A stretch of 64,000 nt of DNA from Sulfurimonas sp. (GTDB lineage: Bacteria; Campylobacterota; Campylobacteria; Campylobacterales; Sulfurimonadaceae): NCBI RefSeq assembly GCF_028714655.1, contig NZ_JAQTLY010000004.1, positions 62,001 through 126,000 on the forward strand. The letters run 5' to 3'. The notes beneath the pieces were generated by a model that ran no database searches, had not been told where the DNA came from, and was given only the letters and a program-made list of their open reading frames with translations. Position numbers and translations under genes: made by a program. Shown here piece by piece: positions 35,092 through 55,377 of this stretch. Numbering within the stretch: the first letter of the stretch is position 1; the number at the start of each line of letters is the position of its first letter.

Positions 35092-35100
35092 AATTTAAAA

Positions 35101-35240
35101 TCCTATCATAGACTGCCGCGCTGCGCTCGCAGTGACATATGTTCAGTCATTGCGTTTTGCCAGTGGCTAAATGGGCTAAATCCACTCACTAGCAGTGACA
35201 ACACCTCGTCATTGCGAGAAGCTTGCGACGAAGCAATCTC
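35101..35240. repeat. Mosaic of 'CEERSDEAI'-type repeats upstream of hypF
   Basis: The right part (TCATTGCGAGAAG..GCGACGAAGCAATCTC) matches the repeat at 22613. The left part (GACTGCCGCGCTGCGCTCGCAGTGAC) is a diverged relative, and a partial inverted repeat (CCAGTGG..CCACT) lies between. It fills most of the 224 bases between the hypA stop and the hypF start, and may separate hypF transcription from hypE-hypA. Confidence 0.75.
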
Positions 35241-35315
35241 TATGTGTTCTAAATGTTGCTTTCGTATGACAGAGTGCTTAACTGTATTTATAGTGACAAA
35301 AAAATCAAATCTCAT

Positions 35316-35657
35316 TTACTCCAGCTCCAAACTCATCAAATACATCTCTTCGCCGTCAAGAACCTTTAAGTCGAAACTCCCGCATTTTGGACATACAAAC
35401 TCATTTTTCTCAAGTTCCGACTCAGCCAGACAGCTGTTGCAGTACACTTTTACTTTTTGAAGATTTATAACCAACTCCGCATTATGACATATTGTGCCGA
35501 GCCTAAACATCTCGTAAGCTTCACGCAGAAGATGAGGCTCAACTCCGCTAAGTACGCCTATTTTAACGACGACTTTTGTTACTTTTTTTGCAGAGTTTTT
35601 TCTTGCATGTTCCTCGCAACTGTCAATAAGCGAGAGCACGATGCTATACTCATGCAT
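35316..35657 (-). CDS. hypA: Hydrogenase nickel-insertion protein HypA
   Basis: 113 residues. The N-terminal MHEYSIV contains the nickel-binding His2-Glu3 pair (here His-Glu, then Tyr), and the zinc site is formed by CNSC and CPKC about 60% along the chain. HypA delivers nickel to the hydrogenase large subunit and, in related bacteria, to urease. Its ATG follows directly on the hypE stop, so the two are coupled. hypB, its usual GTPase partner, is not in the window. Confidence 0.94.
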   Translation of the reverse strand: MHEYSIVLSLIDSCEEHARKNSAKKVTKVVVKIGVLSGVEPHLLREAYEMFRLGTICHNAELVINLQKVKVYCNSCLAESELEKNEFVCPKCGSFDLKVLDGEEMYLMSLELE

Positions 35658-36650
35658 TTAGCAAATCCTTGGGAGCAGTTCACCGCTTGGCATATCTAAA
35701 AACCTCTGCGTCTGCCACGCCGAATTTATAATGACTTTTTTTGGATGCAGATTTGTCACTTTGCCGATGATGGAAGCATTTTTATTAAATGTTTTCAAAA
35801 TCTGCTCTGCCCTCCCTGCTTCTTCTTTTTTAACTGCAAGCAAAAATGTTCCCTCATTTGCCAGAGACATAGCATCAAACCCTAAAAGCTCGCAAAGTCC
35901 CATAACTTCGTCACTTATAACGATTTTGCTCTCATCTGCCTCTATACAGATATTTGACTGTTTTGCCCACTCGTTTAACACCGCACTAACTCCGCCGCGC
36001 GTTGCATCTCTCATAGCCGTTATATCTATGCCGGCATCTATCAAACTCTTTACGGTTGGATAAAGAGAAGTGCAGTCGCTCATAAGAGAGCTGCTTAACT
36101 CAATCCCCTCGCGTGATGCAAAAATAGTCGCCCCATGACACCCGATATCACGACTAAGAAGTATGATATCATCCTCTGTTATGCTGTTTGAGCTTATACC
36201 GCTTTGCAAAATTTCGCCTATGCCAGTCGTGTTTATAAATATCTTATCAACACTTCCTTTGGGCACCACTTTTGTATCACCGCTCACTATTTGTGCGCCG
36301 TTTACCTCTAGCTCTTTTTGCATAGATGAAACTATGCGTTCAAGCTCATCTACGCTAAAACCCTCTTCGATTATCACGCTGCAAGTAAGATATTTCGGCT
36401 TCGCACCCATCATAGAGAGGTCGTTACAAGTTCCGCAAACGGCAAGTTTGCCTATATCCGCACCCGCAAAAAAAAGCGGAGTGACCGTAAAACTGTCGGT
36501 TGAAAATGCCAATCTTCCGCCCTCTATAACCGCCGCATCTTCGCTTTGCTCAAGTATGTCGTTTTTAAACGCTTTGTAAAAAACATCGCTTATCAGCTCG
36601 TTGTTCTCAGCTCCACCGTTCCCATGGGAAAGTTTTATTGTTTTAGTCAT
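35658..36650 (-). CDS. hypE: Carbamoyl dehydratase HypE
   Basis: 330 residues of the PurM-like ATP-binding fold: KLSHGNGGAENNELI, DAAVIEGGRLAFSTDSF, VSGDTKVVPKG and MRDATRGGVSAVLNEWA. The C-terminus is exactly PRIC, whose terminal cysteine takes the carbamoyl group and is dehydrated to thiocyanate. It starts 37 bases beyond the HepT-like gene end and is cut off from hypD by about 15.8 kb, unlike the usual hypC-D-E-A run. Confidence 0.95.
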   Translation of the reverse strand: MTKTIKLSHGNGGAENNELISDVFYKAFKNDILEQSEDAAVIEGGRLAFSTDSFTVTPLFFAGADIGKLAVCGTCNDLSMMGAKPKYLTCSVIIEEGFSVDELERIVSSMQKELEVNGAQIVSGDTKVVPKGSVDKIFINTTGIGEILQSGISSNSITEDDIILLSRDIGCHGATIFASREGIELSSSLMSDCTSLYPTVKSLIDAGIDITAMRDATRGGVSAVLNEWAKQSNICIEADESKIVISDEVMGLCELLGFDAMSLANEGTFLLAVKKEEAGRAEQILKTFNKNASIIGKVTNLHPKKVIINSAWQTQRFLDMPSGELLPRIC

Positions 36651-36687: not shown

Positions 36688-37107
36688 TTATAGTTTTAAA
36701 TATGCCAAATCTTCGTAATACTCACTCTTTAGAGCTTCTTCAATATAAATTTTATGATTTTCGATTTTTGGCAACATTTCAATAAGTAATTTTTTTAAAG
36801 TCGGCAAATAGTTTTGGATAATATCCCAAACCATACTCTCATCTATACCCCTGTAATTATGTGAGATTTTATCTCTCATAGCTGAAATACTTTTCCAACT
36901 GAGAGCATCAGAACTCTTAAGAGCATCATCAATCTTTTTGTTTTCTTCACCTATTGCAATGAGCAAATTAACGGTAGCATTAAAATTTAGCTGTTTATTT
37001 GCATGAAAGAACTCTTCTTCATCTTCAAAATCTTTAGAATAGTAAAAAATCTTCTCAATCGCTTCAAGAATAGTCAAGATGTAAGTTATATTTTTGCTGC
37101 TAAACAT
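36688..37107 (-). CDS. HepT-like HEPN toxin (pair 1)
   Basis: About 139 residues, all-helical. The RNase motif RX4HXY is present as RDKISHNY, the signature of HepT. In the HepT/MntA system HepT is an RNase that the nucleotidyltransferase silences by adding AMP to the tyrosine. The ATG at 37107 (MFSSKN) overlaps the partner's stop by eight bases (ATGTTTAG), the same overlap as in pair 2 at 47230. An upstream in-frame start exists inside the partner gene but is less likely. Confidence 0.82.
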   Translation of the reverse strand: MFSSKNITYILTILEAIEKIFYYSKDFEDEEEFFHANKQLNFNATVNLLIAIGEENKKIDDALKSSDALSWKSISAMRDKISHNYRGIDESMVWDIIQNYLPTLKKLLIEMLPKIENHKIYIEEALKSEYYEDLAYLKL

Positions 37108-37384
37108 AGATAAAATCCTCTTTTGCATCAAACTTTATCAAAGGATTTATCTTTTTAAAATTCATCAAATCAACCTTTGTATGCAACTTTTGAGTTAGCT
37201 CCTCTTCAAGTGTCAAATAGTTCTCAAAACTCATCTTACAACCCTCTTTTAGTATATAAGCTATATCAATATCGCTATCTTGTCGGTTCGCTTCTTTGGC
37301 AAAAGAGCCAAAAAGAACAAACTGAGCAATGTTAAAATCACTTTTTTTATCTTTTAAAATATTTAAAATTTCGTTTTTATTCAT
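37100..37384 (-). CDS. MntA-like nucleotidyltransferase antitoxin (pair 1)
   Basis: 94 residues with the minimal nucleotidyltransferase motif GSX10DXD: LFGSFAKEANRQDSDID, and a later VDLMNF that supplies the third acidic residue. MntA antitoxins adenylylate HepT. It is first in the two-gene unit, as is usual. It lies 54 bases past the end of the giant helicase gene on the same strand and may be on its transcript or have its own promoter. Confidence 0.83.
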   Translation of the reverse strand: MNKNEILNILKDKKSDFNIAQFVLFGSFAKEANRQDSDIDIAYILKEGCKMSFENYLTLEEELTQKLHTKVDLMNFKKINPLIKFDAKEDFIYV

Positions 37385-37438
37385 CTGCTGTATCCTTTAT
37401 GTTTTTTGTGTGTATTTATATATATTTTAAATACTATC

Positions 37439-40400
37439 TTATTCATCTGATAGTTCTAAAATATCAAAAATATCATTTAAATACTTCAACTGTTCTATAT
37501 GAACAATTCTTTCATCTCTATATCTTTTTGGAATTTTATTTCTAAATTCATCTATATCAATCGGCTTATACTTAACAAATTGCTCAATCATGATATCGGA
37601 TAATACACATCTTCTATCAATTTCAAAATCTTGAGATATAACTTCTTCTCTAAATTTAACTAACAGCTCTTTTATTTTTTCATCAGGTAAAAATTGTTGT
37701 AGATAACTAGGTTCAGAAAGTGTTTCTTCTTTATGATGATGTGTTTCTTTTTCTTTTTTTATCTCATCTATAATACTTTCTTCTAATTTTTCAACTGCTT
37801 TAACTTCTATTTCTTGAACTGGAACAAATTGAATTTTTTCATGATATTTAGCTTGAGCCTCTTTGATAACTTTAACAAGTTTTGATATTTCATTTTCTCT
37901 ATTTTTATACCAGTCAACAGACCAAATTCTATAAACTTGCCAACCAAGCATTTCTAAAACATCTTGTTTTAATCTATCTCTATCTCTCGCTGATTTTGAA
38001 GAATGATATGTTGCTCCATCATATTCAATTGCTAATACAAAATCATTAGGATTTTTAATTGATGTCACAGCTAAATCAATAAAATATCCAGCAACTCCCA
38101 CTTGAGGAACACATTTAAAACCACAATCTTTTAAAATGTTATAAACTGAGACTTCAAATTCAGAATCAAAATCTCTATTTATAATTTCTGAAAAGTCAGA
38201 AACAATTCCTTTTTCTAAATAGTTTAAAAAGGCTTTTAAGGCTCTAACACCTCTTGAACTATTTTCAGAAACAATAATATCGCTACTTCTCATTGAAGTA
38301 AATATTTCCATTTTTTGTTTAGAGCGAGTGAATAAAACATTTAGTCTTCTCCATCCCGTATCTGAATTTATAGGTCCAAATCTTTGATAAACCTTTCCTG
38401 TATCTTTATCTTTTCCAAAAGTAGTTGAAATTAAAATTACATCTCTTTCATCTCCTTGAAGATTCTCAAGGTTCTTAATAAAAAATGGTTCACTTGTTTT
38501 TGACCATTTAGAAATATAATTTGATATGGTTGGAGATTCCTTTTCTTTTTCATCAACCATATCTTGAATCAAATCTCTTTGTGTTGAGTTAAATGTTCCA
38601 ATTCCTATTGACCTGTCTGGATAATTTTTCATTTGTTTTTCTAAATGCTCAATAATTATTTTTGCTTCAACCTTATTCCTACTACTCTGATAAGCAGAGT
38701 TTTCTATATAGTGATATTTCACTCCCAACTCTGCACTGTTTTTACTTATAGGAGATGGAAAAACGATTAAATTCCCATCATAAAACTGTTGATTAGAAAA
38801 ATCAATCAAACTTTCATGCTGAGAACGATAATGCCATCTTAATTGTCTAATCGGTTTGTATAAATTTAAACAAATATCTAAAATTGATTCACTTTCACCT
38901 GCAACTGTATCTTCATCTTCTGTTTTATTCATTGAGTCAAAAAATGATGTCGGAGGTAATTGTTTTGGGTCTCCAACAATTACAATTTGATTTACACGCG
39001 CAATTGAGCCTAAAGCTTCTTCTGGTCTCAATTGCGAAGCTTCATCAACAATTAAAACATCAAATTCAACTTGATTGGGTGGTAAATATTGAGCAACAGA
39101 AAGTGGACTCATCATAAAACAAGGCTTCAATGCTTTTAAAGCACCTGATGCTCTTGAAACTAATTGTCTAATTGGGATATGTCTTTTTTTCTTATTTAAT
39201 TCATTTTCAAGTAAGCTAAATTCTGTTAAATCGCTTTTTCTATTTCCTCTATAACCTAAGGGGATTTCTTTTTGGCTTGTTAAATATGCAACTTTTTGTT
39301 TATTTAATTCAATAAGTTTTACATCCAATTCTTTAAAAGTTTTAAGAGATTGTTCGTGTGAAAGTCTATTAAATCTATTGAAAAGTTGATTTTTCCTAAA
39401 TATCTCTTTTAATAAAGTATGATAAAAATTATATGTGAAGTTTTTGATAATTTCATCAATTGGTAAAATCTCATCTTCAACACTCTCAACGATTAAGCTT
39501 AATCCTTGATTTTTTAAATCATGCACAAGTTGTCTATAATTAATCCATATTGATAAAGTTTGTTTATTATTATCCAATTTATCAAGCTTTTCTATACAAT
39601 CATTAATTTTAATATTTTCTCCAAAGAAAACATCATTAATTGTTCCTTTTGTTTCTATTTTTTGATAAATTTTATCAATATCATTTTGTGTATTGGATAT
39701 TTTTTTAAGTATATTGACTCTATCAATATCTTTTACTAGGTATCGTTTTAGATTATTGTCAAGACTAGAGTTCAAAATAAATGTAAACAAATCTTTTGTA
39801 TTAACAATTAATTCATAAGCCTCATCATTTAAATCAATATTTTGACTGTTACTACATTCATTCAACTTTTGAGACAAATCCATAAATAGTTCAAAGTTAA
39901 AGGTTAAATCATTGATGCCTATATCATATTTTTTTATTAAAATAAAAATATCTTCAATTTTCTTACTTGTAATTAAATTAAAAATTTCTCTACCAAAATC
40001 GGAATTTTTACTTACATTTGCGGATTTATAAATAGAGTTAGTTAAATTATCTAAATCATCATTGATGGTTTCTAATTTGGTTTTTAATTCAATAATATCA
40101 ATATCTTCTCTATCATAATAGATTTTTTTAATAAATTTTTTGTTGCAATCTTTTTCCAATGAATCTAAGGAACGATTATATAATTCTAAGTTTTCTATCA
40201 ATGAGTCTTTATATGATAAAAGTAAATGATAGTTGGTTATATCTCCAGATATTAATAGGTTCAAAATTTCTGTAATGTTAATATTTTGTTGAATAACTAA
40301 AACCCATTTGTGAAGCTTTTCAATTTCATCAATATTAGTTTTAGTGCCATTAAATAATTTGCCAAAATATTTAATATATTTTTCATTACTTTCAAATTTA

Positions 40401-42856
40401 CTCTTGAATGAAATATATTCTTTCATTTCTCTAGTAATATCATTCCATTTAGACTTATCATTTGGAAGAGATTTAATAAGAACAGATTCGATTGCATTCC
40501 TTGCTTGTTTATATTCTGTGGAAAAGAAATTAAAGAAAGAGTCTTTTTTATCTTTGATTATTTTTTCAAATAATTCAATTTTTTCAAGATTAATATCATC
40601 TACTTTTTGAGTTTGTGCGATTTTTGATAAATTTTTATTTAGACTATGATATTGATTTAAATCATTTTTCATTAAATCAAATTCTCTTGAAAAGGCTGTA
40701 TCTATATAATTGGAATTTATAAAAGAATATAGTATAGCATCAACATGTGACAGGTAATTTATCCCACTTGATAACTGCTGTATATATTGAATATTTCTGT
40801 TATTAGAAATATTGGTCTCATTTTTAATATGCTTCAAGATTTTATCTATCTTTGCTATATTTAGAATTGTTTTTTCAAATAGTTCAACATACATGTCAAA
40901 ACTATTCAAATTATCTACGATACTGTTGATACTATCTTTTATACTTGAATAGTTTTTAAGATATTCATCATAAACATTAGAAGTATCTGCAAGATTGATT
41001 AATATTTCTTTAGAATAATTCTTAGCTTTATCATTAAATGCTCTTACGAATGCATTTATTTTTTTGCTTTGAGTATATTCATTTGCAATATCTGCATTTA
41101 ATAATTTAAATTGCTCTTGAAGTTGAACAAAATCATTCTTTAATAACTCTAAAGTTTGAATAAAAGAGTCGATATCAACAAAATTTAAATTGTATGTATC
41201 CAAACCATTCCAATAAAATCTATTAAAATCATACTCTTTTAAAAACATTTTGAATTTTTTCAATTCTTCTATTGTGTGTGAAAGCTTATATGCACTATAT
41301 TCATTTGCATTAGGAACATCAAACTTCAAAAACTTAGATGCATTATTATATTTCTCAACTAACCAAAAAATATTGTACGCTTTTTTATCTATTGCTCCAT
41401 GAGATTCATGTAATAAATCAATATATTCTTTGAGATTTTTCTTTTTCTCTTCTATCTCTTGAATTATTCTATCATGAACTTCTGTATCATCGTATTTTGT
41501 TTCAACTCTTTTTTTTATACTCTCTAATATTTTTGTTTTTTGTGATTTATGGCTATGTAACTCTAAACAAAAGTCAGAAAGACCGATAGAATCGAGCCTT
41601 TTATGTACGACTTCTAAGGCGGCAAGTTTTTCTGAAACAAATAAAACAGATTTTCCCTCAGACAACAATACTGCTATCAAGTTTGAAATTGTTTGAGACT
41701 TTCCAGTTCCAGGAGGTCCCTCAATCACAATATTTTTTCCATTTAATACATCAACTATTGCACTATGTTGTGAAGAATCCGCATTCATTACAAGAGGAAT
41801 ATTATTTGCCAATGTGTCTAGATCTATATCGTACTCTTGTGCAAACATGGAAGTGTCAGAAATTTTTTTGCCTTCAAAAATATCTTTAAATATATCTTTT
41901 TCTGACAAAAGCGTGCCATTTTGCCAATTCTCTTCCTTTAAATCTTGATACATCAAAATTTTTCCAAACTTTAAAAAATCGATTGCAATTTCATGTTTTA
42001 ATGACCAATCTTTTTGATATTGGATAGCCTCTTGCACTTCTTTTAAATACTCATAATATGATAGTTCTTCTGTTAGTTCTGGCAATATAACCCCATACTC
42101 ATTATTGAGCTTTTCAGATAATGACCTATTTGTATCAATACCAGCTCCACTATATTCCAAAGTAAATTGATATCTATTAGCTCTTTTTTCTTTATTGAGA
42201 ACAATTGGAATACTGATTAATGGAGAATAATTGTATTGTTCAGAGTTTTTTGCTTCTTTCCATTTTAATAATCCGATAACAAAATAAAGCATATTTGAGC
42301 CTGTTTCTTCTATAATTGTTCTCGCATCTCTTTCAATAGATGTTAATATTTTTTCCATTTCATTTGGATAATGTAATGTTTGCAAGGAATCATCAATATA
42401 TTTTTCTTCAACATCTGAACTGCCTAAATCTATTTCTGGAAGTTCTTTTGAAATATTATAACCTAACTCTTTTGCCCTTTCTTCTGCTGTAAGTAATGCC
42501 TGTTTTTGAAGTTCTTTTTTTTCTGTTTCTAATTTTTCAATAATAAATTGTAATTCTTTTTTGGATAGTTCATCTTCATCTTTTGTAGCTTCTTGTAATT
42601 TTTCTTTATGCTTACTTATTTCATTGTCAATTTTTACTAAGTCCTCTTTTGAAATTGATGGTTCTAGTATAAACTTAAATTTAAATTTGCCTTCATCTTT
42701 TACTAAATAGTTATAAATAAATTCAGCAGATTCATCTATTATTTGAATATTTTTAGATTTACTAGGTCGTTTATAGTTTATAAGTTTGTTTCTTCTTGAT
42801 GTATCTATTAACTTATCTCTTAACTCCTCTATACCTTTAGTAAACAGATTATTCAT
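37439..42856 (-). CDS. DUF4011-type SF1 helicase with C-terminal nuclease
   Basis: About 1805 residues. The N-terminal part resembles DUF4011 (FTKGIEELRDKLIDTSRRNKLINY). Walker A GPPGTGKSQT lies at about 387, then some 800 helical residues. Motif II VDEASQLRPEEA lies at about 1275 with GDPKQLPPTSFF; UvrD-type motifs end at about 1515. A Vsr/MTES_1575-like nuclease follows at about 1575-1680 (YFIDLAV, LAIEYDGATYHSS, DVLEMLGWQVYRIW), and a DUF3320-like tail ends the protein. Such helicase-nuclease giants are frequent in defence islands. The ATG at 42856 has GAAGGGAA before it. No frameshift is visible. Confidence 0.85.
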   Translation of the reverse strand: MNNLFTKGIEELRDKLIDTSRRNKLINYKRPSKSKNIQIIDESAEFIYNYLVKDEGKFKFKFILEPSISKEDLVKIDNEISKHKEKLQEATKDEDELSKKELQFIIEKLETEKKELQKQALLTAEERAKELGYNISKELPEIDLGSSDVEEKYIDDSLQTLHYPNEMEKILTSIERDARTIIEETGSNMLYFVIGLLKWKEAKNSEQYNYSPLISIPIVLNKEKRANRYQFTLEYSGAGIDTNRSLSEKLNNEYGVILPELTEELSYYEYLKEVQEAIQYQKDWSLKHEIAIDFLKFGKILMYQDLKEENWQNGTLLSEKDIFKDIFEGKKISDTSMFAQEYDIDLDTLANNIPLVMNADSSQHSAIVDVLNGKNIVIEGPPGTGKSQTISNLIAVLLSEGKSVLFVSEKLAALEVVHKRLDSIGLSDFCLELHSHKSQKTKILESIKKRVETKYDDTEVHDRIIQEIEEKKKNLKEYIDLLHESHGAIDKKAYNIFWLVEKYNNASKFLKFDVPNANEYSAYKLSHTIEELKKFKMFLKEYDFNRFYWNGLDTYNLNFVDIDSFIQTLELLKNDFVQLQEQFKLLNADIANEYTQSKKINAFVRAFNDKAKNYSKEILINLADTSNVYDEYLKNYSSIKDSINSIVDNLNSFDMYVELFEKTILNIAKIDKILKHIKNETNISNNRNIQYIQQLSSGINYLSHVDAILYSFINSNYIDTAFSREFDLMKNDLNQYHSLNKNLSKIAQTQKVDDINLEKIELFEKIIKDKKDSFFNFFSTEYKQARNAIESVLIKSLPNDKSKWNDITREMKEYISFKSKFESNEKYIKYFGKLFNGTKTNIDEIEKLHKWVLVIQQNINITEILNLLISGDITNYHLLLSYKDSLIENLELYNRSLDSLEKDCNKKFIKKIYYDREDIDIIELKTKLETINDDLDNLTNSIYKSANVSKNSDFGREIFNLITSKKIEDIFILIKKYDIGINDLTFNFELFMDLSQKLNECSNSQNIDLNDEAYELIVNTKDLFTFILNSSLDNNLKRYLVKDIDRVNILKKISNTQNDIDKIYQKIETKGTINDVFFGENIKINDCIEKLDKLDNNKQTLSIWINYRQLVHDLKNQGLSLIVESVEDEILPIDEIIKNFTYNFYHTLLKEIFRKNQLFNRFNRLSHEQSLKTFKELDVKLIELNKQKVAYLTSQKEIPLGYRGNRKSDLTEFSLLENELNKKKRHIPIRQLVSRASGALKALKPCFMMSPLSVAQYLPPNQVEFDVLIVDEASQLRPEEALGSIARVNQIVIVGDPKQLPPTSFFDSMNKTEDEDTVAGESESILDICLNLYKPIRQLRWHYRSQHESLIDFSNQQFYDGNLIVFPSPISKNSAELGVKYHYIENSAYQSSRNKVEAKIIIEHLEKQMKNYPDRSIGIGTFNSTQRDLIQDMVDEKEKESPTISNYISKWSKTSEPFFIKNLENLQGDERDVILISTTFGKDKDTGKVYQRFGPINSDTGWRRLNVLFTRSKQKMEIFTSMRSSDIIVSENSSRGVRALKAFLNYLEKGIVSDFSEIINRDFDSEFEVSVYNILKDCGFKCVPQVGVAGYFIDLAVTSIKNPNDFVLAIEYDGATYHSSKSARDRDRLKQDVLEMLGWQVYRIWSVDWYKNRENEISKLVKVIKEAQAKYHEKIQFVPVQEIEVKAVEKLEESIIDEIKKEKETHHHKEETLSEPSYLQQFLPDEKIKELLVKFREEVISQDFEIDRRCVLSDIMIEQFVKYKPIDIDEFRNKIPKRYRDERIVHIEQLKYLNDIFDILELSDE

Positions 42857-42941
42857 ATAGCTTCCCTTCTTAAACACAATTTTTTATTAAAACTAATATT
42901 ATTTTTTCATATGGAATATTGTAGCAAATTCTCATATTGTT

Positions 42942-44027
42942 TTAGTCATCTTCTTTCTCCATCGTATTTAAACTATGTTTTAACTCATTTTCTATCATTT
43001 GGATAGTCGGTAAACTTGATTCAAACTCTTTTGGTAAAATCTCTGTCAATTCATACTCCGATATGCCAATAGGCTGTGACATATTTCTCAGTGAATATTC
43101 AGCAACTATTTCATTTTTTTCTTGACAAAGAATAAGTCCAATCGTCGGTTTGTCTTCTTTATGAGCTAAAATCCCATCTATAGCAGAACAGTAAAAATTA
43201 ACCTGCCCCGAATATTCAGGCTTGAATTTACCTTTTTTAAGTTCAACTACTACATAACATCGAAGTTTCAGATGATAAAAAAGTAAGTCAATATAAAAAT
43301 CATCCTCGCCAACTTCAAGCTTATACTGTCTGCCGACAAATGCAAAACCGCTTCCAAGCTCTATGAGAAACTTTTCCATATGTTTGATCAGATTTGACTC
43401 AAGTTCTCTTTCTAAAAAAGGCTCGGCAATAGTTAAAAAATCAAATAAGTAAGGGTCTTTAAATGATTGTTGCACCAAATCACTATCTTGTGGGGCTAAA
43501 ATATTTTTAAAGTTTGATACGAGCTTTCCTTCTCTTTTATGCAGTTGGCTTTGTATCATTAAAGCCAACACATCCCTACTCCAACCATGTTCAAGAGTTT
43601 TTTGCATATACCAATATCGCAAATCTGCGTCTTTGATTTTCTCTATTAAAATTACATTATGCGACCAAGGAATTTGTGACACTATTGGTGGCATAATCTC
43701 ATCCTCCATTTGTGCCACTGCTTGTGGCACTTTTTCAAAAGGCTGTGTATATTCCTTATAAAAACGCAACATTCTTTTAATATTTCTAACAGAAAACCCG
43801 CCAAGCTCTGGAAATGCACTCTTTATGTCATGACTAAGGTTATCAATAACCTTCGCACCCCATCCAAGCTCTTTTTGTTTTTGGTTTATACTCTTTCCAA
43901 TACGAAAATAAAGCAGTATCATCTCTTTATTTACACTATTTATAGCTCTTATCTGCGATGATTTTATCTGTTGTTTTATCTCTGCTAAAAAAGAGTTGTA
44001 ATCATTTTGTGTTTGCATGTCATTCAT
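42942..44027 (-). CDS. DUF1016/YhcG-type PD-(D/E)XK nuclease
   Basis: 361 residues. The N-terminal DUF1016 domain has LYFRIGKSINQKQKELGWGAKVIDNLS and GFSVRNIKRMLRFYKEY. The C-terminal nuclease has the acid in DDFYIDLLFYH and the ExK in YVVVELKKGKF, followed by the conserved QVNFYCSAIDG. Family members sit beside restriction-modification and defence genes; their target is not established. No methylase is present here. It is the middle gene between the helicase and the Septu-like pair, with gaps of about 30-85 bases. Confidence 0.85.
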   Translation of the reverse strand: MNDMQTQNDYNSFLAEIKQQIKSSQIRAINSVNKEMILLYFRIGKSINQKQKELGWGAKVIDNLSHDIKSAFPELGGFSVRNIKRMLRFYKEYTQPFEKVPQAVAQMEDEIMPPIVSQIPWSHNVILIEKIKDADLRYWYMQKTLEHGWSRDVLALMIQSQLHKREGKLVSNFKNILAPQDSDLVQQSFKDPYLFDFLTIAEPFLERELESNLIKHMEKFLIELGSGFAFVGRQYKLEVGEDDFYIDLLFYHLKLRCYVVVELKKGKFKPEYSGQVNFYCSAIDGILAHKEDKPTIGLILCQEKNEIVAEYSLRNMSQPIGISEYELTEILPKEFESSLPTIQMIENELKHSLNTMEKEDD

Positions 44028-44058
44028 CTCTATTTTCCCGCATCTTTCTTAATTTTAC

Positions 44059-44985
44059 TCATATCAGATTTAACTCTTCGCTAATATCTTTGATAAGTTT
44101 GCTTAGAGGGCGTTTGTGAAGGTCGTCATCTTTTTTGTAATTATTTAATAAAAGCCTATAAATTTCATCTTTTGTAAATCCAAAATTATTTTCTAACTCT
44201 TCAATATACGATTTTGGATAATAAGCTTTTTTCATAAGTAAATCTACAACAATATCTTTATGTTGTTTATAAAGCTCATCTAATTTAAAAATTTCTATAT
44301 TATCGTTATTTTTAATGAACTCTATTTCAAAGCTATCTGTATTATATTTTGTGCTTTCAATTTGCAAAAAATTTACATCATTGGGTATGTATGTTAATTT
44401 AAAATCATCATCTTTTATATCATAAGGATTTATTAAATTTTCAGCACTCTTACTACTTTTTGTATGATTGCAAATAGGACAACTAGGAATGAGATTATAA
44501 AAACTCATAGCTAAAAATGGATAAATAGATTTTGGATAAAAATGGTCTATTTCTGGTCGTAACTTTCCGCTCTCTTTATCAACTATTAAAGTATAATTTC
44601 TATTACAATATGGACAAGTTTTTAAATCTATTGTTTTTATAAATTCATAAGAGCCGTATTTTTTTCTTTCACACCAATTATCATATTCTTTTTCAAAAAT
44701 ATCTTTTCTCAAAATCTTATAAAGTCTTTTCCAATTTTTTTCTTTAGTATTTGGCATACCTATAGCTTTTGGAAAATTAATTTTAAAATGCTCAATATAT
44801 GTTTTCATTTGATTGTTGTCAGCTTGTAAAATACTTTTCAAATTATCTTTAAGATAATTTAAACATTCTTTTTCATAAAGCAATAACTTGGATTTTAATT
44901 TATTTGTTAATAATTTAGTGATTGATTTTTCAATTTCAGTAATATGCTTATAAAAAAGCTCTTGATTAAATTTTATTTTGAACAT
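44059..44985 (-). CDS. HNH nuclease, Septu PtuB-like
   Basis: About 308 residues. The zinc-bound HNH region has CPYC at about 129-132 (longer-start numbering), the catalytic pair in PEIDHFYPKS at about 152 and CPICNHTKSSKSAENLINP at about 174. This spacing is typical of PtuB/RetB-type HNH proteins paired with an ATPase. The start at 44985 (MFKIKFN) lies inside the end of the ATPase gene by 20 bases; an in-frame ATG at 45000 would make it 35. Septu systems cut nucleic acids on phage infection. Confidence 0.78.
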   Translation of the reverse strand: MFKIKFNQELFYKHITEIEKSITKLLTNKLKSKLLLYEKECLNYLKDNLKSILQADNNQMKTYIEHFKINFPKAIGMPNTKEKNWKRLYKILRKDIFEKEYDNWCERKKYGSYEFIKTIDLKTCPYCNRNYTLIVDKESGKLRPEIDHFYPKSIYPFLAMSFYNLIPSCPICNHTKSSKSAENLINPYDIKDDDFKLTYIPNDVNFLQIESTKYNTDSFEIEFIKNNDNIEIFKLDELYKQHKDIVVDLLMKKAYYPKSYIEELENNFGFTKDEIYRLLLNNYKKDDDLHKRPLSKLIKDISEELNLI

Positions 44986-46807
44986 TTTTAAGTCTTTCAA
45001 TTTCTGCTTTTAATTCTTTTATCTCTTCATCTTTTGAGTTTATCTTAAATTTTTCATCATACATTTTTAAAAGTTTTTCTCTTAAAAAATCTTCTCCAAT
45101 TTTTTCAATTATTAACTTCACTTGTTCTTCTTTAATGCTTTTAAGAGGTTTGTTATTTTTTAAATAATCAAGTATTTCTGTAATTTTCTCTTTCGCAAAT
45201 TCTCCCATAAGTCCACCCTGCATAAAAAAACCGTCAGCTAAAAGAGTATGGATATTTGCACCAAAAGTTTGTTTTTTTTCTAAAGCATCAATCTGCTTAC
45301 CTTCTTTTAAAAATATTACATTTTCTTTTGGTAAGTCCGAGAGAATAAATGGGGAGTGTGAAGTAAATATCAAATGAAGATATAATTTTTTGGTTTTTGA
45401 TATTTCATTTTGAATATGTATAAAACTTTTCAATAATCTTTTTTGCCAATTAGGATGAAATGAGAGTTCAATTTCATCAAATAACATTACACCGTTAAAG
45501 TCATCTTGTAATCTAAAAAGTGTATATGCAAAGTTTGTTAAGACATTCAAAAAAAGTTTTTCACCAGAACTAAGTTCTAAAAAATGGCAATTATTCTTTT
45601 TAGAATTTAAAAAATTGCATCTTAAAATATTATTGTTCATCATAAAATTTAAAAGCTCATTGTTATAAACAGTTTCTAAATAATTATCTTCCATCTTGAA
45701 AATTTTACTTTGGAATATTGTGTTAGATTGAGGAACTTCATAATTTCCCATAATTTCGTGAATATTATTCATAGGTTTTATCGGTTCCCATTGAGGATAA
45801 GCAGAAAATAAATTTATATCAAATATTTCTTCTGAAATAGACTCTTCAATTTTTTCCAAACTATTTTTACAAATGTGTAATGTAAGCTTTAAAGAGGAGT
45901 CATTAAAATAATTTATTTGATTAATTAACTTATCTTCAATGTTTTCTTTAATATATTTTTTCAATATTTCAGCATTTGCAGTATTTGGCTCCAAAGAATG
46001 ATGCTTTGAGTTATGAATTTTATCTGTTGTCATCTCAATTGCTAAAACAATAAGCATTTTATATAACAATTCTTCATTATTTAAATGCTTTTTCTTTTGA
46101 AAACTTATATATTCGCCAAATTCTTTATTATCATATTGAACGATACTAACTTCTATTTCTTGTAACTTTATTTCACATTGGTAGCTATCAAAAATAAAAT
46201 TTTCATCAATAAAGTTGAAAAAATCAACATTTTTTTTCAAAATATATTGAAATTTTTGATTGAAATTATCATAAGAATTTTCACTTTTCATCAAAGGTTT
46301 TATTGGTTGAATTCCATTGTAAAATTTATCGTAATTTTTTAAAGCTTTAAGGCTGTAGTTATGTGTAATATCACTAATACAATTTGAGAAATGTATTAAT
46401 GGCATCATAGTTCTGTAACAAAATTCTTTACTCATAGCTATAGATGTATTATTTTTAATTTTGATAAAATCTTCTAATTCAATATTTTTATGTTTATAAT
46501 TTTCACATTGAATAAAAAATCTATCGTCTTTATAAAAAAGAAAAAATGTTTTATCTTCTCTATTTACTATCACTCCTTGATAAAATAAAAAAGTTAAAAC
46601 TTCAAATAAACTACTCTTCCCACTCCCATTCTCCCCCACAATTGCAGTAATATTAATATTCTCAGGAAAGATACTTACATGTTCTTTTTCATCAATAGTT
46701 AATTCTTTACTAGCTTCATCATACTTACATGTAAACCTAGGCGAAAAGTTAAACCCCTGATTTTTTATATTTTTATACTCTTCAACCCAAAGATATACTA
46801 ACTCCAC
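44966..46807 (-). CDS. AAA ATPase, Septu PtuA-like
   Basis: 613 residues, SMC/ABC-like. Walker A GENGSGKSS at about 58-66; a long helical insertion; the signature ELSSGEKLFLNVL; Walker B VMLFDEIELSFHPNWQKRLL; and the histidine switch FTSHSPFILSDLP. The C-terminus is coiled coil (KDEEIKELKAEIERLK). No TOPRIM nuclease domain is visible, which separates it from OLD proteins and Gabija GajA and leaves cleavage to the downstream HNH partner. It overlaps that gene, so expression is coupled. Confidence 0.8.
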   Translation of the reverse strand: MELVYLWVEEYKNIKNQGFNFSPRFTCKYDEASKELTIDEKEHVSIFPENINITAIVGENGSGKSSLFEVLTFLFYQGVIVNREDKTFFLFYKDDRFFIQCENYKHKNIELEDFIKIKNNTSIAMSKEFCYRTMMPLIHFSNCISDITHNYSLKALKNYDKFYNGIQPIKPLMKSENSYDNFNQKFQYILKKNVDFFNFIDENFIFDSYQCEIKLQEIEVSIVQYDNKEFGEYISFQKKKHLNNEELLYKMLIVLAIEMTTDKIHNSKHHSLEPNTANAEILKKYIKENIEDKLINQINYFNDSSLKLTLHICKNSLEKIEESISEEIFDINLFSAYPQWEPIKPMNNIHEIMGNYEVPQSNTIFQSKIFKMEDNYLETVYNNELLNFMMNNNILRCNFLNSKKNNCHFLELSSGEKLFLNVLTNFAYTLFRLQDDFNGVMLFDEIELSFHPNWQKRLLKSFIHIQNEISKTKKLYLHLIFTSHSPFILSDLPKENVIFLKEGKQIDALEKKQTFGANIHTLLADGFFMQGGLMGEFAKEKITEILDYLKNNKPLKSIKEEQVKLIIEKIGEDFLREKLLKMYDEKFKINSKDEEIKELKAEIERLKNVQNKI

Positions 46808-46871
46808 AGCTTACGCCCTTTCTTTCAATAACAAAATATATTGTTCTAGCCAACTTTATAAATAGTCTTAT

Positions 46872-47237
46872 CTATGACATATAATTTTGCATTATTTTTT
46901 TAACTGACTCTTTTATCACAGGCAGTCTTTGCACAATAACATCTTCGATTATATACAAGTCCACGCCTTCATAATCATGAGCTATAAAATTTCTAAGTTC
47001 ATAACTGCCCTTTATATCTTGTTTGTCAAAAAATGCCAACACCTCAAGTTCTCCGTTGTGAAGAAGCTTATCAAACTGTTCTGCTATGGATGTCAGGTGC
47101 ATAAGCACGGAAGCTCTTGAGTTTTGTTCATCTTCAAGAGCTTTTGATACGGAACCTTTTTCACTCACTATAGCATTTATAAAATCTATCTTTTTGTCTA
47201 TAAGAGCTACTCTTTCTATGGCTTTTTGACTAAACAT
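46872..47237 (-). CDS. HepT-like HEPN toxin (pair 2)
   Basis: About 121 residues with RX4HXY as RNFIAHDY. The start at 47237 (MFSQKAIER) overlaps the partner's stop by eight bases (ATGTTTAG), exactly as in pair 1. The two HepT proteins share the MFS start, the motif and the following 'EGVD/RGID' but differ elsewhere, so they are diverged relatives, not a recent duplicate. It is the last gene of its unit, 64 bases before the Septu-like ATPase start. Confidence 0.83.
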   Translation of the reverse strand: MFSQKAIERVALIDKKIDFINAIVSEKGSVSKALEDEQNSRASVLMHLTSIAEQFDKLLHNGELEVLAFFDKQDIKGSYELRNFIAHDYEGVDLYIIEDVIVQRLPVIKESVKKIMQNYMS

Positions 47238-47544
47238 ATATAAGTTCCTTTTGTATTGTCTCTTTAAATGGGCTTTGGCTGTCAAGGTCAAATATATCTA
47301 TATTGCGGTGAAATTTTTTTCTTATTTTATCTTTGATCTTTGAAATAGTCTCGAAATAGGAGTAAGAAGAGTTATGAGATAGGTAGTCGCTTCTTTTTGC
47401 AATGGCTACATCTATATCGCTATATACGCTCTGCGTATCTTTGGCGAAACTTCCAAAAAGTGCAAATGTCGTAATTCCGTCTTTTGAGAACTCTGCTTTT
47501 AATTCTATTAAATAGTACAATATACTCTCTTTTGTTGCTCTCAT
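47230..47544 (-). CDS. MntA-like nucleotidyltransferase antitoxin (pair 2)
   Basis: 104 residues with GSX10DXD (ALFGSFAKDTQSVYSDID) and a later NIDIFDL acidic residue. The end KELIYV resembles EDFIYV in pair 1. It should adenylylate and neutralise the HepT partner. It marks the upstream edge of the AT-rich defence island; beyond it, after about 90 bases, lie metabolic genes. Confidence 0.83.
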   Translation of the reverse strand: MRATKESILYYLIELKAEFSKDGITTFALFGSFAKDTQSVYSDIDVAIAKRSDYLSHNSSYSYFETISKIKDKIRKKFHRNIDIFDLDSQSPFKETIQKELIYV

Positions 47545-47630
47545 CTTTTTCCTTTAAACATTCAAAAATTATATCATAACGGTGTATCATAGATTCTATT
47601 TTTCATAATTTAGGCAAGTTTTCTCTAAAC

Positions 47631-48650
47631 TCACCCCATCGGGTACATTATCTCTTGCTGCACTGCTTTTATCTCACTCATTGTCTCTTCGCTCAAAGTC
47701 ACATCTAGTGCGGCAAGTGACTCGTCCATCTGTTCTCTGTTTCTTGCTCCTATTATCGTCGACGCTACAAAATCAAACTGTTTTGTGTATGCCACCGCCA
47801 AAGTCACGGGAGAGATTTCAAGCTTTTTTGCAATACCAAGATAGCGTGCCGTAGCTTTAAGCGTTTTTTCATTTACAAACTTTGCGGCTTGAGAGTTTAG
47901 GCGGCTGCTTTTGCTTGACGCATAGTCCGAGTATCTTGCATTTTCAGGGTAAAACGCACCGTTATATTTACCGCTGAGCACTCCTCCTGCTATGGGTGAG
48001 TACGCCAGAAGTGAAATCTGCTCTCTTTTGCACACGGTTGCAAGCTCATCCAAAAATCGCGGATTGTTTAGAGAAAAGTTGTTTTGTATGGACTCAAATC
48101 TTGCAATTCCTAAGCGTTTTGAAGTCTCATTTGCTTTTGTAAGTCCGTAAGCGGTGTCGTTTGAAGTTCCTATATAGCGTACCTTGCCCTCTTTTACCAG
48201 CTCATCAAAAGCCTTTAACGACTCCTCGATAGGCACAACGGAATCAGGCCAGTGCATCTGGTACAGGTCGATATAATCCGTTTGAAGCCGCTTCAAGCTC
48301 CCCTCGATGGCTTTTTTGATATGAAATGAGTCAATCGCGGTATAACCATGGCGGATAGGCGGAACAAACCAGCCGTTTGCCGCACCTGCGACTTTTGAAG
48401 CTAAAATAACACTATCTCTGGGTTTGCCCTTTAGCCATTTTCCGATTATAGTCTCGGTTATGCCCGCATCTTCAACCCTCGGCGGTACGGGATAGAGTTC
48501 TGCGGTGTCAAAAAAGTTAATCCCTCGCTCATACGCCTTATCCATAATCCTAAAAGCTTCCGCCTCATCGCTCCAACTGCCAAAACTCATTGTCCCTAAA
48601 CCGATAGAAGTTACTCTAAGTCCCGTTTTTCCTATATATCTGTACTGCAT
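47631..48650 (-). CDS. Aldo/keto reductase
   Basis: 339 residues of the AKR TIM barrel: YRYIGKTGLRVTSIGLGTMSFG, the catalytic tyrosine in FDTAELYP, the lysine in VILASKVAG and the histidine in LYQMHWPD. The C-terminal STIIGARNREQM binds the NADPH phosphate. It is of the YajO/Tas-like group; the substrate is unknown. It lies 31 bases past pyk, probably the last gene of the CHAD-sixA-pyk run. Confidence 0.85.
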   Translation of the reverse strand: MQYRYIGKTGLRVTSIGLGTMSFGSWSDEAEAFRIMDKAYERGINFFDTAELYPVPPRVEDAGITETIIGKWLKGKPRDSVILASKVAGAANGWFVPPIRHGYTAIDSFHIKKAIEGSLKRLQTDYIDLYQMHWPDSVVPIEESLKAFDELVKEGKVRYIGTSNDTAYGLTKANETSKRLGIARFESIQNNFSLNNPRFLDELATVCKREQISLLAYSPIAGGVLSGKYNGAFYPENARYSDYASSKSSRLNSQAAKFVNEKTLKATARYLGIAKKLEISPVTLAVAYTKQFDFVASTIIGARNREQMDESLAALDVTLSEETMSEIKAVQQEIMYPMG

Positions 48651-48681: not shown

Positions 48682-50145
48682 TTAATAACAATCTAAATCT
48701 TTTAAATTGATAAAAAAATCTATCTCATCTTTTTTAAGCACTCTTATCATATTTGTGCTGCCTCTGACATCGGACGGGTCGCCTGCCGTTAAGATATAAC
48801 TTTTATCAGGGCTGATAAAATTGCGATTTACTCCGTCTGTAAATACCTGATTTAACATCTGCCCGATTGAGCCTTTTTTTACCAAAAATGCGGGAACTAC
48901 TCCCCAAACAATGGTTAGCAATCTTGCGGTTTTTTCTGTATGAAAAACAGCATAAATAGCTTGGCTCGGTCTGTATCTGGCTATCTTTTTAGCACTGTCG
49001 CCGGAGTTTGTCATAGTAAAAATTCCGTCTGTTTTTAGATGATTTGACAACCTCGCAGCCGAATAGTTTATGCTATCGGTAGAGTCATGCATCTCAAAAT
49101 CTCCAAATTTATAGTAAGGATAAGTGGATCTCTCGGTAGCCTTGATAGTCTCCATCATAATCGTTACTGCTTCTATCGGATACTTGCCGACGGTTGTCTC
49201 TTCGGACAACATCACGGCATCGCTGCCGTCTAGTATTGCATTTGCCACATCGCTTATCTCGGCTCTTGTTGCGCTTTTACTGTTTGTCACGGAGAGAAGC
49301 ATTTGAGTAGCGGTAATTACTGGTTTACTCATCTCATTTGCTTTTTTGATAATCATTTTTTGAACTTGCGGCACTTCATAATATGGAATTTCTATACCCA
49401 AATCACCCCTTGCGACCATTATCCCGTCACTGACATCTATGATTTCATCAATATTTTCAACGCCGTCAAATTTTTCTATTTTGGCAAAGAGTTGCACATC
49501 TCCGCCAAAAGAAGTCACAATTTCTCTGGCTTTTATGATATCCCCGGCATGCTGCACAAACGATATTGCCATAAAATCCACATCATTTTCAACGCCCCAT
49601 TTTATATCTTTGATATCTTTTGGCGTAAGCACATCAAGCCCAATCTTTGTATTTGGAAAATTTACCCCTTTAAAAGAGGACAATATGCCATTGCTAAGAG
49701 CCTCAACCACAACTCTATCATCTCCGATTTGCACTACTTTTGTCTTAATCTGCCCGTCACAAAAAAAGATATAACTATCCGGCTGAAGATTTTGCAAAAT
49801 TTTAGGTTCACTAATACTTAGCGTATAGCTGCTATTTTGATTTTTGTATCCGACTACATCATTTTTTAAAATCTCTATTCTTTCGCCTACTGCTATCTCA
49901 AAAGTACCCTCTAAAGCCCCTACCCTTATCTTAGGACCGCTAATATCTTGCAAAACCCCGATAAACAGATTTGTCAGTTTGCCTGCCTCTCTAATCCTTT
50001 GCAAAACACCGGCGTGATACTCGTGAGTACCGTGAGAAAAATTCAGTCTAAAGACATTTACTCCGGCTCGCACCAAAGCTATGATTTTTTCTAAACTGTC
50101 GGATGATGGTCCAATCGTTGCTACTATTTTTGTTCTTTTTTTCAT
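48682..50145 (-). CDS. pyk: Pyruvate kinase
   Basis: 487 residues. Core motifs are TKIVATIGPSS, LNFSHGTHEYH, DISGPKIRVG, the active site IEKFDGVENIDEI, MVARGDLGIEIPY and ITATQMLLS, followed by a C-terminal allosteric domain. It turns PEP and ADP into pyruvate and ATP. It starts 15 bases after the SixA-like gene, which suggests co-expression. Confidence 0.94.
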   Translation of the reverse strand: MKKRTKIVATIGPSSDSLEKIIALVRAGVNVFRLNFSHGTHEYHAGVLQRIREAGKLTNLFIGVLQDISGPKIRVGALEGTFEIAVGERIEILKNDVVGYKNQNSSYTLSISEPKILQNLQPDSYIFFCDGQIKTKVVQIGDDRVVVEALSNGILSSFKGVNFPNTKIGLDVLTPKDIKDIKWGVENDVDFMAISFVQHAGDIIKAREIVTSFGGDVQLFAKIEKFDGVENIDEIIDVSDGIMVARGDLGIEIPYYEVPQVQKMIIKKANEMSKPVITATQMLLSVTNSKSATRAEISDVANAILDGSDAVMLSEETTVGKYPIEAVTIMMETIKATERSTYPYYKFGDFEMHDSTDSINYSAARLSNHLKTDGIFTMTNSGDSAKKIARYRPSQAIYAVFHTEKTARLLTIVWGVVPAFLVKKGSIGQMLNQVFTDGVNRNFISPDKSYILTAGDPSDVRGSTNMIRVLKKDEIDFFINLKDLDCY

Positions 50146-50160
50146 GATTTATTAGTATCC

Positions 50161-50646
50161 TTATATTTTTTTTGGATAATCAAATGATATAAATTTTGCA
50201 TTTTTTGCACTTATATCCGCCCATTTATCGCAATCAAACTCTATCTCGACAACTCCGCTTGTAGGGATGTTTTGGCTAAAATCGACATAATATTCTGCCA
50301 ACATATTTAGAGCGGGGTTGTGTCCTACTAAAAAAAGTATGCCGCACTTATCGTCAATTTTGGTCAATATGCTATGAAGAGTGCTTACGCTCGACTCATA
50401 GATATCTTGGTTAAAGAGAATATCTTTAGAGTACTTTATCTCTTTGGCAATCATTTTTGCCGTAGTTTTGGCTCTCAATGCAGGGCTTGATACGATAATA
50501 TCAGGCATTACGCCACTCTCTTTTAGTCTTTTTCCCATAAAAGGAGCGTTTTGTTTGCCTCTTTTGTTTAGCGGTCTGTCAAAATCATTTATCGCTTCAT
50601 CTTTCCAACTTGATTTTGCATGTCTTATAATGTAGAGTTTTTTCAT
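50161..50646 (-). CDS. SixA-like histidine phosphatase
   Basis: 161 residues. The phosphohistidine motif is IIRHAKSSWKD near the N-terminus and the second catalytic histidine is in LVGHNPALN. DFDRPLNKRGKQNAP is typical of SixA, which removes phosphate from histidine phosphotransfer proteins such as PtsN-system NPr in E. coli. Its ATG overlaps the CHAD gene stop by four bases. SixA-type and CHAD genes recur as neighbours, pointing to phosphate or polyphosphate handling. Confidence 0.85.
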   Translation of the reverse strand: MKKLYIIRHAKSSWKDEAINDFDRPLNKRGKQNAPFMGKRLKESGVMPDIIVSSPALRAKTTAKMIAKEIKYSKDILFNQDIYESSVSTLHSILTKIDDKCGILFLVGHNPALNMLAEYYVDFSQNIPTSGVVEIEFDCDKWADISAKNAKFISFDYPKKI

Positions 50647-51338
50647 AATGCATATCCATACTCATCTTCTATACCTTTAAACTCTTTAAAAATTCTCAAA
50701 TTTTCCATATTTGTGAAATCTTGAATCTTTTCAAAGAGCTTAGGTTTAACGGCAAAGCGGCTCAATCTTTTCAAACCGTTATAATTATCGTTTATCTCTC
50801 CAAGCAAATCTTTTACTTTTATAAGGATCTCCACTCTCTTCTCATCCAAAGGAGTGCTGTTTTTCTCGTTGTACAATCTTTTTTTTATGTAGATCCTGTA
50901 CTTATGCAGCTCTTCTTGATTTAGCGTTTCTATTTTTCTGCTCTTTAAAGATTTGTTACGCACATTTTGTTCAAACTCTGCACTTTGGGGAATAACTAAA
51001 GATTTTAAATAAAGACGAAGCTTTTTTATCTTCTTTTTTCTTTTTTTCTTTATAGACTTTTTGATAGCTTTGATATCTAATTTTAAAATATATTTTTTTG
51101 GCAAAGAACCGAGATATGTTTGGATAAACACATCCATATCCCGTATCTTGTTACTTTGTTTGATTACTTTTTTAAGCTCCGTCGAAAACGGATCATCGGC
51201 ACTTACCAAAGAGAGCAACTCCCTGCCGTTGACTCTTAATGAATGGATGCTTTTAACACTGCTTTTTTGCTTTACTATAAACTGAGTGATATATTTTTTA
51301 AACTCTTCTAGTTTTTTTGATAAAAGTTCATTTTGCAT
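50643..51338 (-). CDS. CHAD-domain protein
   Basis: 231 residues, helical and very basic, with SIHSLRVNGRELLSL (the conserved histidine and arginine helix of CHAD) and long Lys/Arg runs (IKKSIKKKRKKKIKKLRLYLK). CHAD domains bind inorganic polyphosphate. No CYTH triphosphatase domain is fused here. It heads a run with sixA, pyk and the aldo/keto reductase. The RxxR/lysine density fits an anionic ligand. Confidence 0.8.
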   Translation of the reverse strand: MQNELLSKKLEEFKKYITQFIVKQKSSVKSIHSLRVNGRELLSLVSADDPFSTELKKVIKQSNKIRDMDVFIQTYLGSLPKKYILKLDIKAIKKSIKKKRKKKIKKLRLYLKSLVIPQSAEFEQNVRNKSLKSRKIETLNQEELHKYRIYIKKRLYNEKNSTPLDEKRVEILIKVKDLLGEINDNYNGLKRLSRFAVKPKLFEKIQDFTNMENLRIFKEFKGIEDEYGYAL

Positions 51339-52403: not shown

Positions 52404-52431
52404 AGCTTCACTCCAAATCTTATGTCGGCTA

Positions 52432-53559: not shown

Positions 53560-53837
53560 TGAAAACACTTATCGCTGTCTATGATGCTCTGTTGCAGTTC
53601 ATCATCATCCATCCGCCCGAGTATCTCATCAAATGCTTCAAGAGATAACAGAGCATCCTCTTTGTCGATTTTGTTCATAATAAAACCGACATGTATAAGC
53701 ACATAGTCCCCGACCTTAACACTGCCCTCTTGCATAAGGTCTAAAGAAGCTTCACGGCTCACTCCCATAGTATCAACGGTTGCAGTGTTTGTAGTTTTAT
53801 CTATCTTGGTTACACGGCTGGGAATTGAAAGACACAT
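53556..53837 (-). CDS. hypC: Hydrogenase maturation chaperone HypC
   Basis: 93 residues beginning MCLSIPSRV; the second-position cysteine binds the Fe(CN)2CO unit and the hydrogenase large-subunit precursor. It contains VGDYVLIHVGFIMNKID, the family core. It is first in the hypC-hypD unit. hypB does not precede it; instead, a Phd/VapC pair is transcribed divergently from a 146-base spacer. Confidence 0.94.
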   Translation of the reverse strand: MCLSIPSRVTKIDKTTNTATVDTMGVSREASLDLMQEGSVKVGDYVLIHVGFIMNKIDKEDALLSLEAFDEILGRMDDDELQQSIIDSDKCFQ

Positions 53838-54711: not shown

Positions 54712-54766
54712 AGAGTTGAGTAAAAAGACATTAAATTATATTCAATCAAAACACAACACTCTCTAG
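54701..54766 (+). other. Short ORF overlapping the vapC end, possible gene remnant
   Basis: Reads MTNEELSKKTLNYIQSKHNTL and stops. It opens at two or three tandem ATGs overlapping the vapC stop, as a coupled third gene would, but is closed after about 21 codons near the convergent mazF stop. It may be the truncated head of a lost gene or chance. Confidence 0.25.
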
Positions 54767-55320: not shown

Positions 55321-55377
55321 TTTCAACTCCTTAATGTATATCCAAAGTATATCATAGTATTGTTAAATACTAAACCC

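Follow-up and report, generated by a model that had tools for sequence, protein, structure and literature searches.

Gene content of the hypD–hypE region

We analysed a window of 64,000 nt from Sulfurimonas sp. (contig NZ_JAQTLY010000004.1 of assembly GCF_028714655.1, positions 62,001 to 126,000), in which 15.8 kb separate two genes of the hydrogenase-maturation operon, hypD and hypE. The part of this gap next to hypE, positions 36688-47544, is an island of eight genes encoding defence-type proteins and two HepT/MntA toxin–antitoxin (TA) pairs, termed here pair A and pair B. In the direction of transcription the order is MntA-B, HepT-B, a PDC-M62A-type ATPase, a PDC-M62B-type HNH nuclease, a DUF1016 nuclease, an Hhe/PDC-S37-like helicase-nuclease (Hhe below), MntA-A, HepT-A and then hypE, hypA and hypF. 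Besides the island, the gap holds genes for a Fic protein, a CHAD-like protein, a histidine phosphatase, pyruvate kinase and an aldo/keto reductase (AKR). The features are listed below from hypD to hypF; ORF stands for open reading frame, and G and L numbers designate genomes and loci of our comparisons.

52432..53568, minus strand: hypD, upstream core edge of the hot spot (phmmer label against hypD of G005)
51420..52472, minus strand: protein of the Fic family, probably starting within the ORF (PF02661)
50643..51338, minus strand: CHAD-like protein, a weak label (phmmer label; family representative under the Pfam CHAD cut-off)
50161..50646, minus strand: histidine phosphatase, SixA-like (census label; representative matches PF00300)
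48682..50145, minus strand: pyruvate kinase (ORF, name recognised from sequence; a homologue adjoins the AKR gene in G005 and G120)
47631..48650, minus strand: AKR (ORF, name recognised from sequence; relatives)
47603..47629, minus strand: 3′ remnant of a parE toxin gene, which G120 has complete (sequence; G120 DNA matches from 47629, 97%)
47230..47544, minus strand: MntA-B antitoxin (PF18765/PF01909, GSX10DXD)
46872..47237, minus strand: HepT-B toxin, ATG within the 8-nt overlap (PF01934, RX4HXY)
44966..46807, minus strand: AAA ATPase, PDC-M62A type (PADLOC PDC-M62A, 2e-167)
44059..45000, minus strand: HNH nuclease, PDC-M62B type (PADLOC PDC-M62B, 2.8e-70; PF01844)
42942..44027, minus strand: DUF1016/YhcG nuclease, C-terminus ..EKEDD (PF17761, PF06250)
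42935..42949, minus strand: insertion scar copying 15 nt from the start of hypE, ATGACTAAAACAATA (sequence comparison)
37439..42877, minus strand: DUF4011–SF1 helicase–MTES_1575 nuclease, Hhe/PDC-S37-like, real start probably an ATG ~20 nt inside the ORF
37100..37384, minus strand: MntA-A antitoxin (PF18765/PF01909, GSX10DXD; NCBIfam MntA above cut-off)
36688..37107, minus strand: HepT-A toxin, ATG within the 8-nt overlap (PF01934, RX4HXY)
35658..36650, minus strand: hypE, core edge on the downstream side and presumed anchor of recombination
32743..35657, minus strand: hypA and hypF, rest of the hyp operon (ORFs, names recognised from sequence)

The initial annotation had described two HepT/MntA pairs around a helicase-nuclease, a DUF1016 nuclease and a Septu-like pair; positions, strand and Pfam matches agree with this layout, all eight genes lying on the minus strand. 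The guanine-plus-cytosine content was 23-26% in the inner genes save DUF1016 (34%), 28-29% in pair A, 33-34% in pair B and 39-45% in the flanking core genes.

The hypD–hypE gap as a hot spot of gene exchange

The genus sample comprised 135 genomes, 81 of them with hypE. DNA upstream of nearly all hypE matches was taken, apart from a second match in G021, whose first base is base 3 of its contig, and one in G075, also a second match, whose contig had been sampled already. The two genes shared a contig in 74 loci, some genomes contributing two or three. Census genes were called as longest ORFs and labelled by phmmer with references from these loci; cargo families were assigned by Pfam, with several unknown cargo ORFs outside the Pfam scan.

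The hypD–hypE gap was longer than 400 bp in 34 of the 74 loci and longer than 1 kb in 29. No other gap of the operon exceeded 1 kb (hypC–hypD, 0/67; hypB–hypC, 0/66; hypE–hypA, 0/19), and in many loci the bare hypD–hypE state is a 4-nt overlap of the two genes. The filled gaps carried McrBC, PDC-M62, DUF1016, KAP, Fic, HNH, YefM, ParE, PemK, AbiEii, YafQ, VF530, histidine phosphatase and ORF6N. Practically all of their ORFs, 122 of 123, followed the direction of the operon; the single opposite ORF has 80 codons. On the hypD tree of the 74 loci we counted at least 15 switches between the bare and the filled state, nine of them forced by well-supported branches. Filled gaps were also seen in Arcobacter caeni, Aliarcobacter vitoriensis, Poseidonibacter and Sulfuricurvum.

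Varied cargo between the same core genes, emptiness in relatives and repeated gain and loss are the properties of a hot spot, and the hypD–hypE gap has them; the island is very likely the newer part of its cargo. An integrative mobile element is not indicated: no integrase or transposase family was found among the cargo proteins scanned, some unknown ORFs being outside the scan, and the 64-kb window has no tRNA gene. The top-ranked open-access literature matches do not name a hypD–hypE hot spot; as far as that literature shows, the hot spot and the hypE-start scars described below are new.

Several loci of the Arcobacteraceae type (L310, L318, L324, L336, L345 and L350) share a MazG-like protein of 117-118 amino acids in the gap (PF12643 was tested for L310), in several cases directly before hypE. 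Upstream of hypC in the window (53984-55326) there are, by names given by eye, an apparent antitoxin/PIN-toxin pair on the plus strand and a MazEF-like pair on the minus strand; hypB of the window does not adjoin hypC.

Copies of the hypE start record the order of arrival

We scanned the gaps of 60 loci (198,656 bases) for copies of the first 60 nt of hypE scoring at least 14; later windows of the ~1-kb gene in 60-nt steps and the reverse complement served as a control. Six matches were found (scores 47.5, 30, 29, 25.5, 15 and 14), all starting at hypE nucleotide 0-2. Elsewhere the maxima were 18.5 for the later hypE windows and 14 for the reverse complement. Four of these scars are clear and two short. 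Five lie no more than 8 nt from the stop codon of an older cargo gene, and the sixth (G100) 185 nt past one. In G055 a 49-nt copy stands between McrB and pair A; besides the window, further copies are in G099, G100, G071 and Sulfuricurvum STB_35 (L341).

The short scar of the window is also backed by the C-terminus of the DUF1016 protein. Where DUF1016 abuts hypE (G024, G039, G004), its stop codon falls inside the hypE start (GATGACTAA) and the protein ends in ..EKTDD. In the window the protein ends in ..EKEDD, its stop codon falling within the 15-nt scar; then Hhe follows, and hypE is now 6.3 kb away. Full-length DUF1016 relatives that do not abut hypE end otherwise (..SLKN on contig 21 of G099, ..DDEK in G054). 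The window's DUF1016 gene is shown to have once ended in the hypE start, Hhe, MntA-A and HepT-A having later come between and left 15 nt behind. Since the copy follows DUF1016, Hhe and pair A are younger at the site than DUF1016. A sequence at the end of Hhe (ATGAATAA) was considered as a second scar and discarded, as Hhe homologues away from hypE share that ending.

Related genomes show other stages. G039 has no Hhe and no pair A; it carries pair B and M62A on one contig and M62, DUF1016 and hypE on another, and shows the state before the arrival of Hhe and pair A. A YefM/ParE pair stands in front of this PDC-M62/DUF1016 block in G004. In the window MntA-B is preceded by the last 27 nt of parE, a gene that G120 has complete; the window has thus probably lost a YefM/ParE pair. 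The order is SixA, pair B, HNH, hypE in G005 and McrBC, pair A, hypE in G055. The initial annotation had offered two successive insertions as one of its explanations; that insertions were successive is supported, and relatives with one pair only exist (G005, G039, G055).

That all six scars start at the hypE start, none matching on into the next 60-nt window, would also be expected if this start were an attachment site for a recombinase acting in trans, in the manner of an integron, and the scars were attachment-site duplications. The strict single direction of the cargo and the lack of integrase or transposase families among the scanned cargo proteins would suit such a site-specific mechanism as well. 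However, scar length varies, no common motif after the scars is obvious by eye, most junctions are scarless and no recombinase was identified; we regard this explanation as unlikely.

The two HepT/MntA pairs are independent

The two HEPN genes score above the Pfam cut-off for PF01934, and the two nucleotidyltransferase genes above those for Polbeta/NTP_transf_2. As previously noted for this DNA, each pair has the motifs GSX10DXD and RX4HXY (MntA-A, GSFAKEANRQDSDID; HepT-A, RDKISHNY; MntA-B, GSFAKDTQSVYSDID; HepT-B, RNFIAHDY) and the same 8-nt overlap, ATGTTTAG. By domains and motifs, i.e. PF01934 with RX4HXY beside NTP_transf_2/Polbeta with GSX10DXD, both pairs belong to HepT/MntA. Of the NCBIfam equivalog cut-offs only that for MntA-A is passed (61.9 versus 60); HepT-A (28.9), HepT-B (24.7) and MntA-B (40.7) remain below.

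The HepT/MntA (type VII) system of Shewanella has the same two motifs (PMC7641770). Pairs A and B resemble it in these motifs and in the order MntA then HepT, and differ in that the sequences are distant, three of the four window proteins being under the equivalog cut-offs. By analogy with Shewanella, HepT would act as an RNase and MntA would neutralise it by transferring AMP; pairs of this kind may make the loss of neighbouring genes slower.

The same layout and the same overlap word could suggest that the pairs are duplicates, or repeats serving as recombination arms between which the island was inserted. We consider this highly improbable. Identity over the alignment is 32% between the MntA proteins and 24% between the HepT proteins. 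Another HepT protein from this genome shares 47% with HepT-B, and a third shares 37% with HepT-A; these identities rule out the pairs as duplicates. Neither is the overlap a sign of kinship: among 73 non-redundant HepT/MntA pairs from the loci gathered for this count, 62 had an 8-nt overlap and 17 had ATGTTTAG itself, and the layout too is common to the family. The proposal in the initial annotation that insertion took place at related sequences, meaning the pairs, does not hold, the pairs being distant paralogues and the insertion point the hypE start.

There are 11 HepT genes in the 2.19-Mb genome of the window, and in a simulation with 11 uniformly placed genes two fell within 10.5 kb in 43% of placements. 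Two nearby pairs therefore exceed chance by little, and their overlap follows a family rule. The genome also has a true recent duplication, unlike A and B: L001 and L005, ~15 kb apart on one contig, are near-identical MntA/HepT pairs (MntA 100%, HepT 98%), one HepT being shortened to 83 amino acids. Considered as possible sister pairs of A or B, they were dismissed, as they are near-copies of each other and not of A or B.

The initial annotation had also suggested that the pairs could act as addiction modules for each half of the island. Read in this way, they would be the functional edges of one island and hold the cargo between them. Some observations agree with this. HepT-B with at least 92% identity was found in four genomes (the window's, G005 beside HNH, G039 beside M62A, G073 beside McrC), always beside defence-type cargo in the same direction, and mostly different cargo. 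HepT-A with at least 91% identity was found in three (the window's; G055, beside McrBC and hypE; G126, beside an M62B-type HNH gene away from hypE). TA genes were present in 8 of 15 loci with restriction or defence genes versus 2 of 20 without (Fisher p=0.008, shared ancestry being ignored; G120 counted through L290, KAP and Fic counted as neither). This association fits a stabilisation of cargo, in which addiction would be the role of the TA genes.

Still, the pairs occurred together at no other locus examined. PDC-M62 or McrBC stand at the site without a TA pair in G116, G118, G032 and G134, and with other TA families in G133, G081 and G037. Some inner genes thus occur without either pair, an arrangement that the initial annotation had set against its own proposal: PDC-M62 at the site in G116 and G118, and Hhe homologues elsewhere in G016 and G062. 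G120 kept MntA-B and lost HepT-B, and the YefM/ParE pair was probably lost from the window; orthologues of either pair at 79% identity or less are mostly solitary beside housekeeping genes. As edges of one functional island the pairs are therefore an improbable explanation. Pair A and pair B are independent TA pairs from different layers, and the frame they form is coincidental layering, not a unit.

The orphan antitoxin gene of G120 (L290, 7437-7751) is 97% identical to MntA-B; the match stops 24 nt into HepT-B, and a KAP gene follows. In G126 (L151, 535-1234) pair A (91%) stands between the M62B-type HNH gene and an unrelated gene of 283 amino acids, which starts right past the HepT stop.

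Inner defence genes

The helicase-nuclease and the DUF1016 nuclease are what they had been taken for, with DUF4011, SF1-helicase and MTES_1575 nuclease domains in the former and DUF1016_N and YhcG_C in the latter. The helicase-nuclease shares its three domains with Hhe and with PADLOC PDC-S37; it fits PDC-S37 better, and its score with the NCBIfam Hhe model (NF042953) is 1398 bits, below the cut-off of 2000 bits. Hhe and pair A were also considered as a conserved unit and rejected: in the stretches examined, no MntA/HepT stands beside the Hhe homologues of five other genomes of the genus, three of which have fragments only.

The pair earlier called Septu-like does consist of an AAA ATPase and an HNH nuclease. 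It is not Septu in the strict sense, with scores of 47.8 versus an NCBIfam cut-off of 500 for PtuA and 19.4 versus 150 for PtuB; PADLOC PDC-M62A/B, a candidate system, fits far better, both proteins matching across nearly full length. PDC-M62 loci (44059-46807 and relatives) look mosaic in many genomes of the genus. DNA matching the window (up to 98%) is limited to about 200 nt at the beginning of the ATPase gene, a segment close to the end of that gene and about 80 nt at the end of the HNH gene, and the middle does not match; the ends may serve as recombination arms.

Proposed serial insertion anchored in hypE

We consider serial one-sided insertion anchored in hypE to be, with good probability, the best explanation of these observations: cargo enters stepwise in the direction of the operon, the latest item adjoining hypE. 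As for the recombination mechanism, we infer the following. Incoming DNA carrying cargo followed by hypE would pair with the resident hypE, and its other end would join illegitimately at or just inside the resident hypE start. Each insertion would thus be one-sided, a homology-facilitated illegitimate recombination, with natural transformation as the probable route. Only inserts that do not block hypE would survive selection, and the single direction of the cargo and the stop codons overlapping the hypE start would be due to this selection.

A different route is the ordinary two-sided homologous exchange of whole blocks via hypD and hypE, with scars as rare by-products. Oliveira et al. 2017 (PMC5635113) proposed such exchange for hot spots that are poor in integrases; they report that the core genes at the flanks recombine and that these hot spots are more frequent in transformable species. 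Most of our loci have no scar. We take this route to be a distinct possibility; alone, it does not explain accretion on the hypE side with copies of the hypE start at older stop codons. Along with one-sided insertion, exchange of this kind probably spreads finished blocks.

A number of observations weigh against serial insertion at a hot spot. A detectable scar is present in only 6 of the 60 gap loci, and two short ones (15 in the window, 14 in G071) are not above chance by score and rest on position. No second scar lies between Hhe and pair A, so that the two may have arrived jointly or separately. Not all of the cargo is defensive (AKR, SixA, CHAD-like, VF530, pyruvate kinase), and the gap of G065 holds hydrogenase genes, so that a filled gap need not be foreign cargo. 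Joints that look illegitimate are seen at the start of hypE, but a donor origin of the hypE 5′ end was not significant: the first 60 nt of hypE following cargo, 90% versus 81% in pre-selected pairs, failed a label-permutation test (301/2000; 173/2000 without near-copies). No transfer event was observed.

The hypE of L231 (G121) looks mosaic, its first 60 nt being 88-92% and the next 90 nt 70-72% like the AKR-adjacent hypE genes of its group (G063, G025, G134 and G117).

Comparison with known hot spots

The hypD–hypE gap resembles the hot spots of PMC5635113 in its fixed core-gene borders, high turnover and lack of a recognised integrase, and the window lacks tRNA genes. It differs in lying inside a tightly packed operon, in the single direction of its cargo and in readable scars from one border gene. 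In the type VI secretion system effector-immunity arrays of Vibrio cholerae, sequential displacement was described and homology-facilitated illegitimate recombination proposed (PMC5361080). Serial one-sided insertion at a conserved anchor, with older genes pushed outwards, would be common to both cases. In Vibrio, however, the region upstream of the effector-immunity module serves as the anchor and old effectors disappear; here the anchor is hypE, a housekeeping gene, and defence and TA genes make up the cargo. Defence systems are likewise swapped at one core-gene location in the Listeria immigration control region (PMC10059834) and in the Pseudomonas core defence hot spots (PMC10250203); these belong to another phylum and locus, and hypE scars are not mentioned in the parts of the two papers covered.

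Defence islands are often treated as integrase-bearing mobile elements. Here turnover is embedded in an operon with no integrase in sight, the scars give the order of arrival and the mode of acquisition becomes testable. The defence cargo is tied to an operon for hydrogen use, and its expression may follow hydrogen metabolism. More tentatively, one could speculate that across Campylobacterota (Sulfurimonas, Sulfuricurvum, Arcobacteraceae) the hypE start is a preferred docking point for integrase-free one-way accretion of genes read with the hydrogenase-maturation operon. If so, each new block would join at the first hypE codons and leave a layer mark made of the hypE start, and the island would be an ordered record of acquisition.

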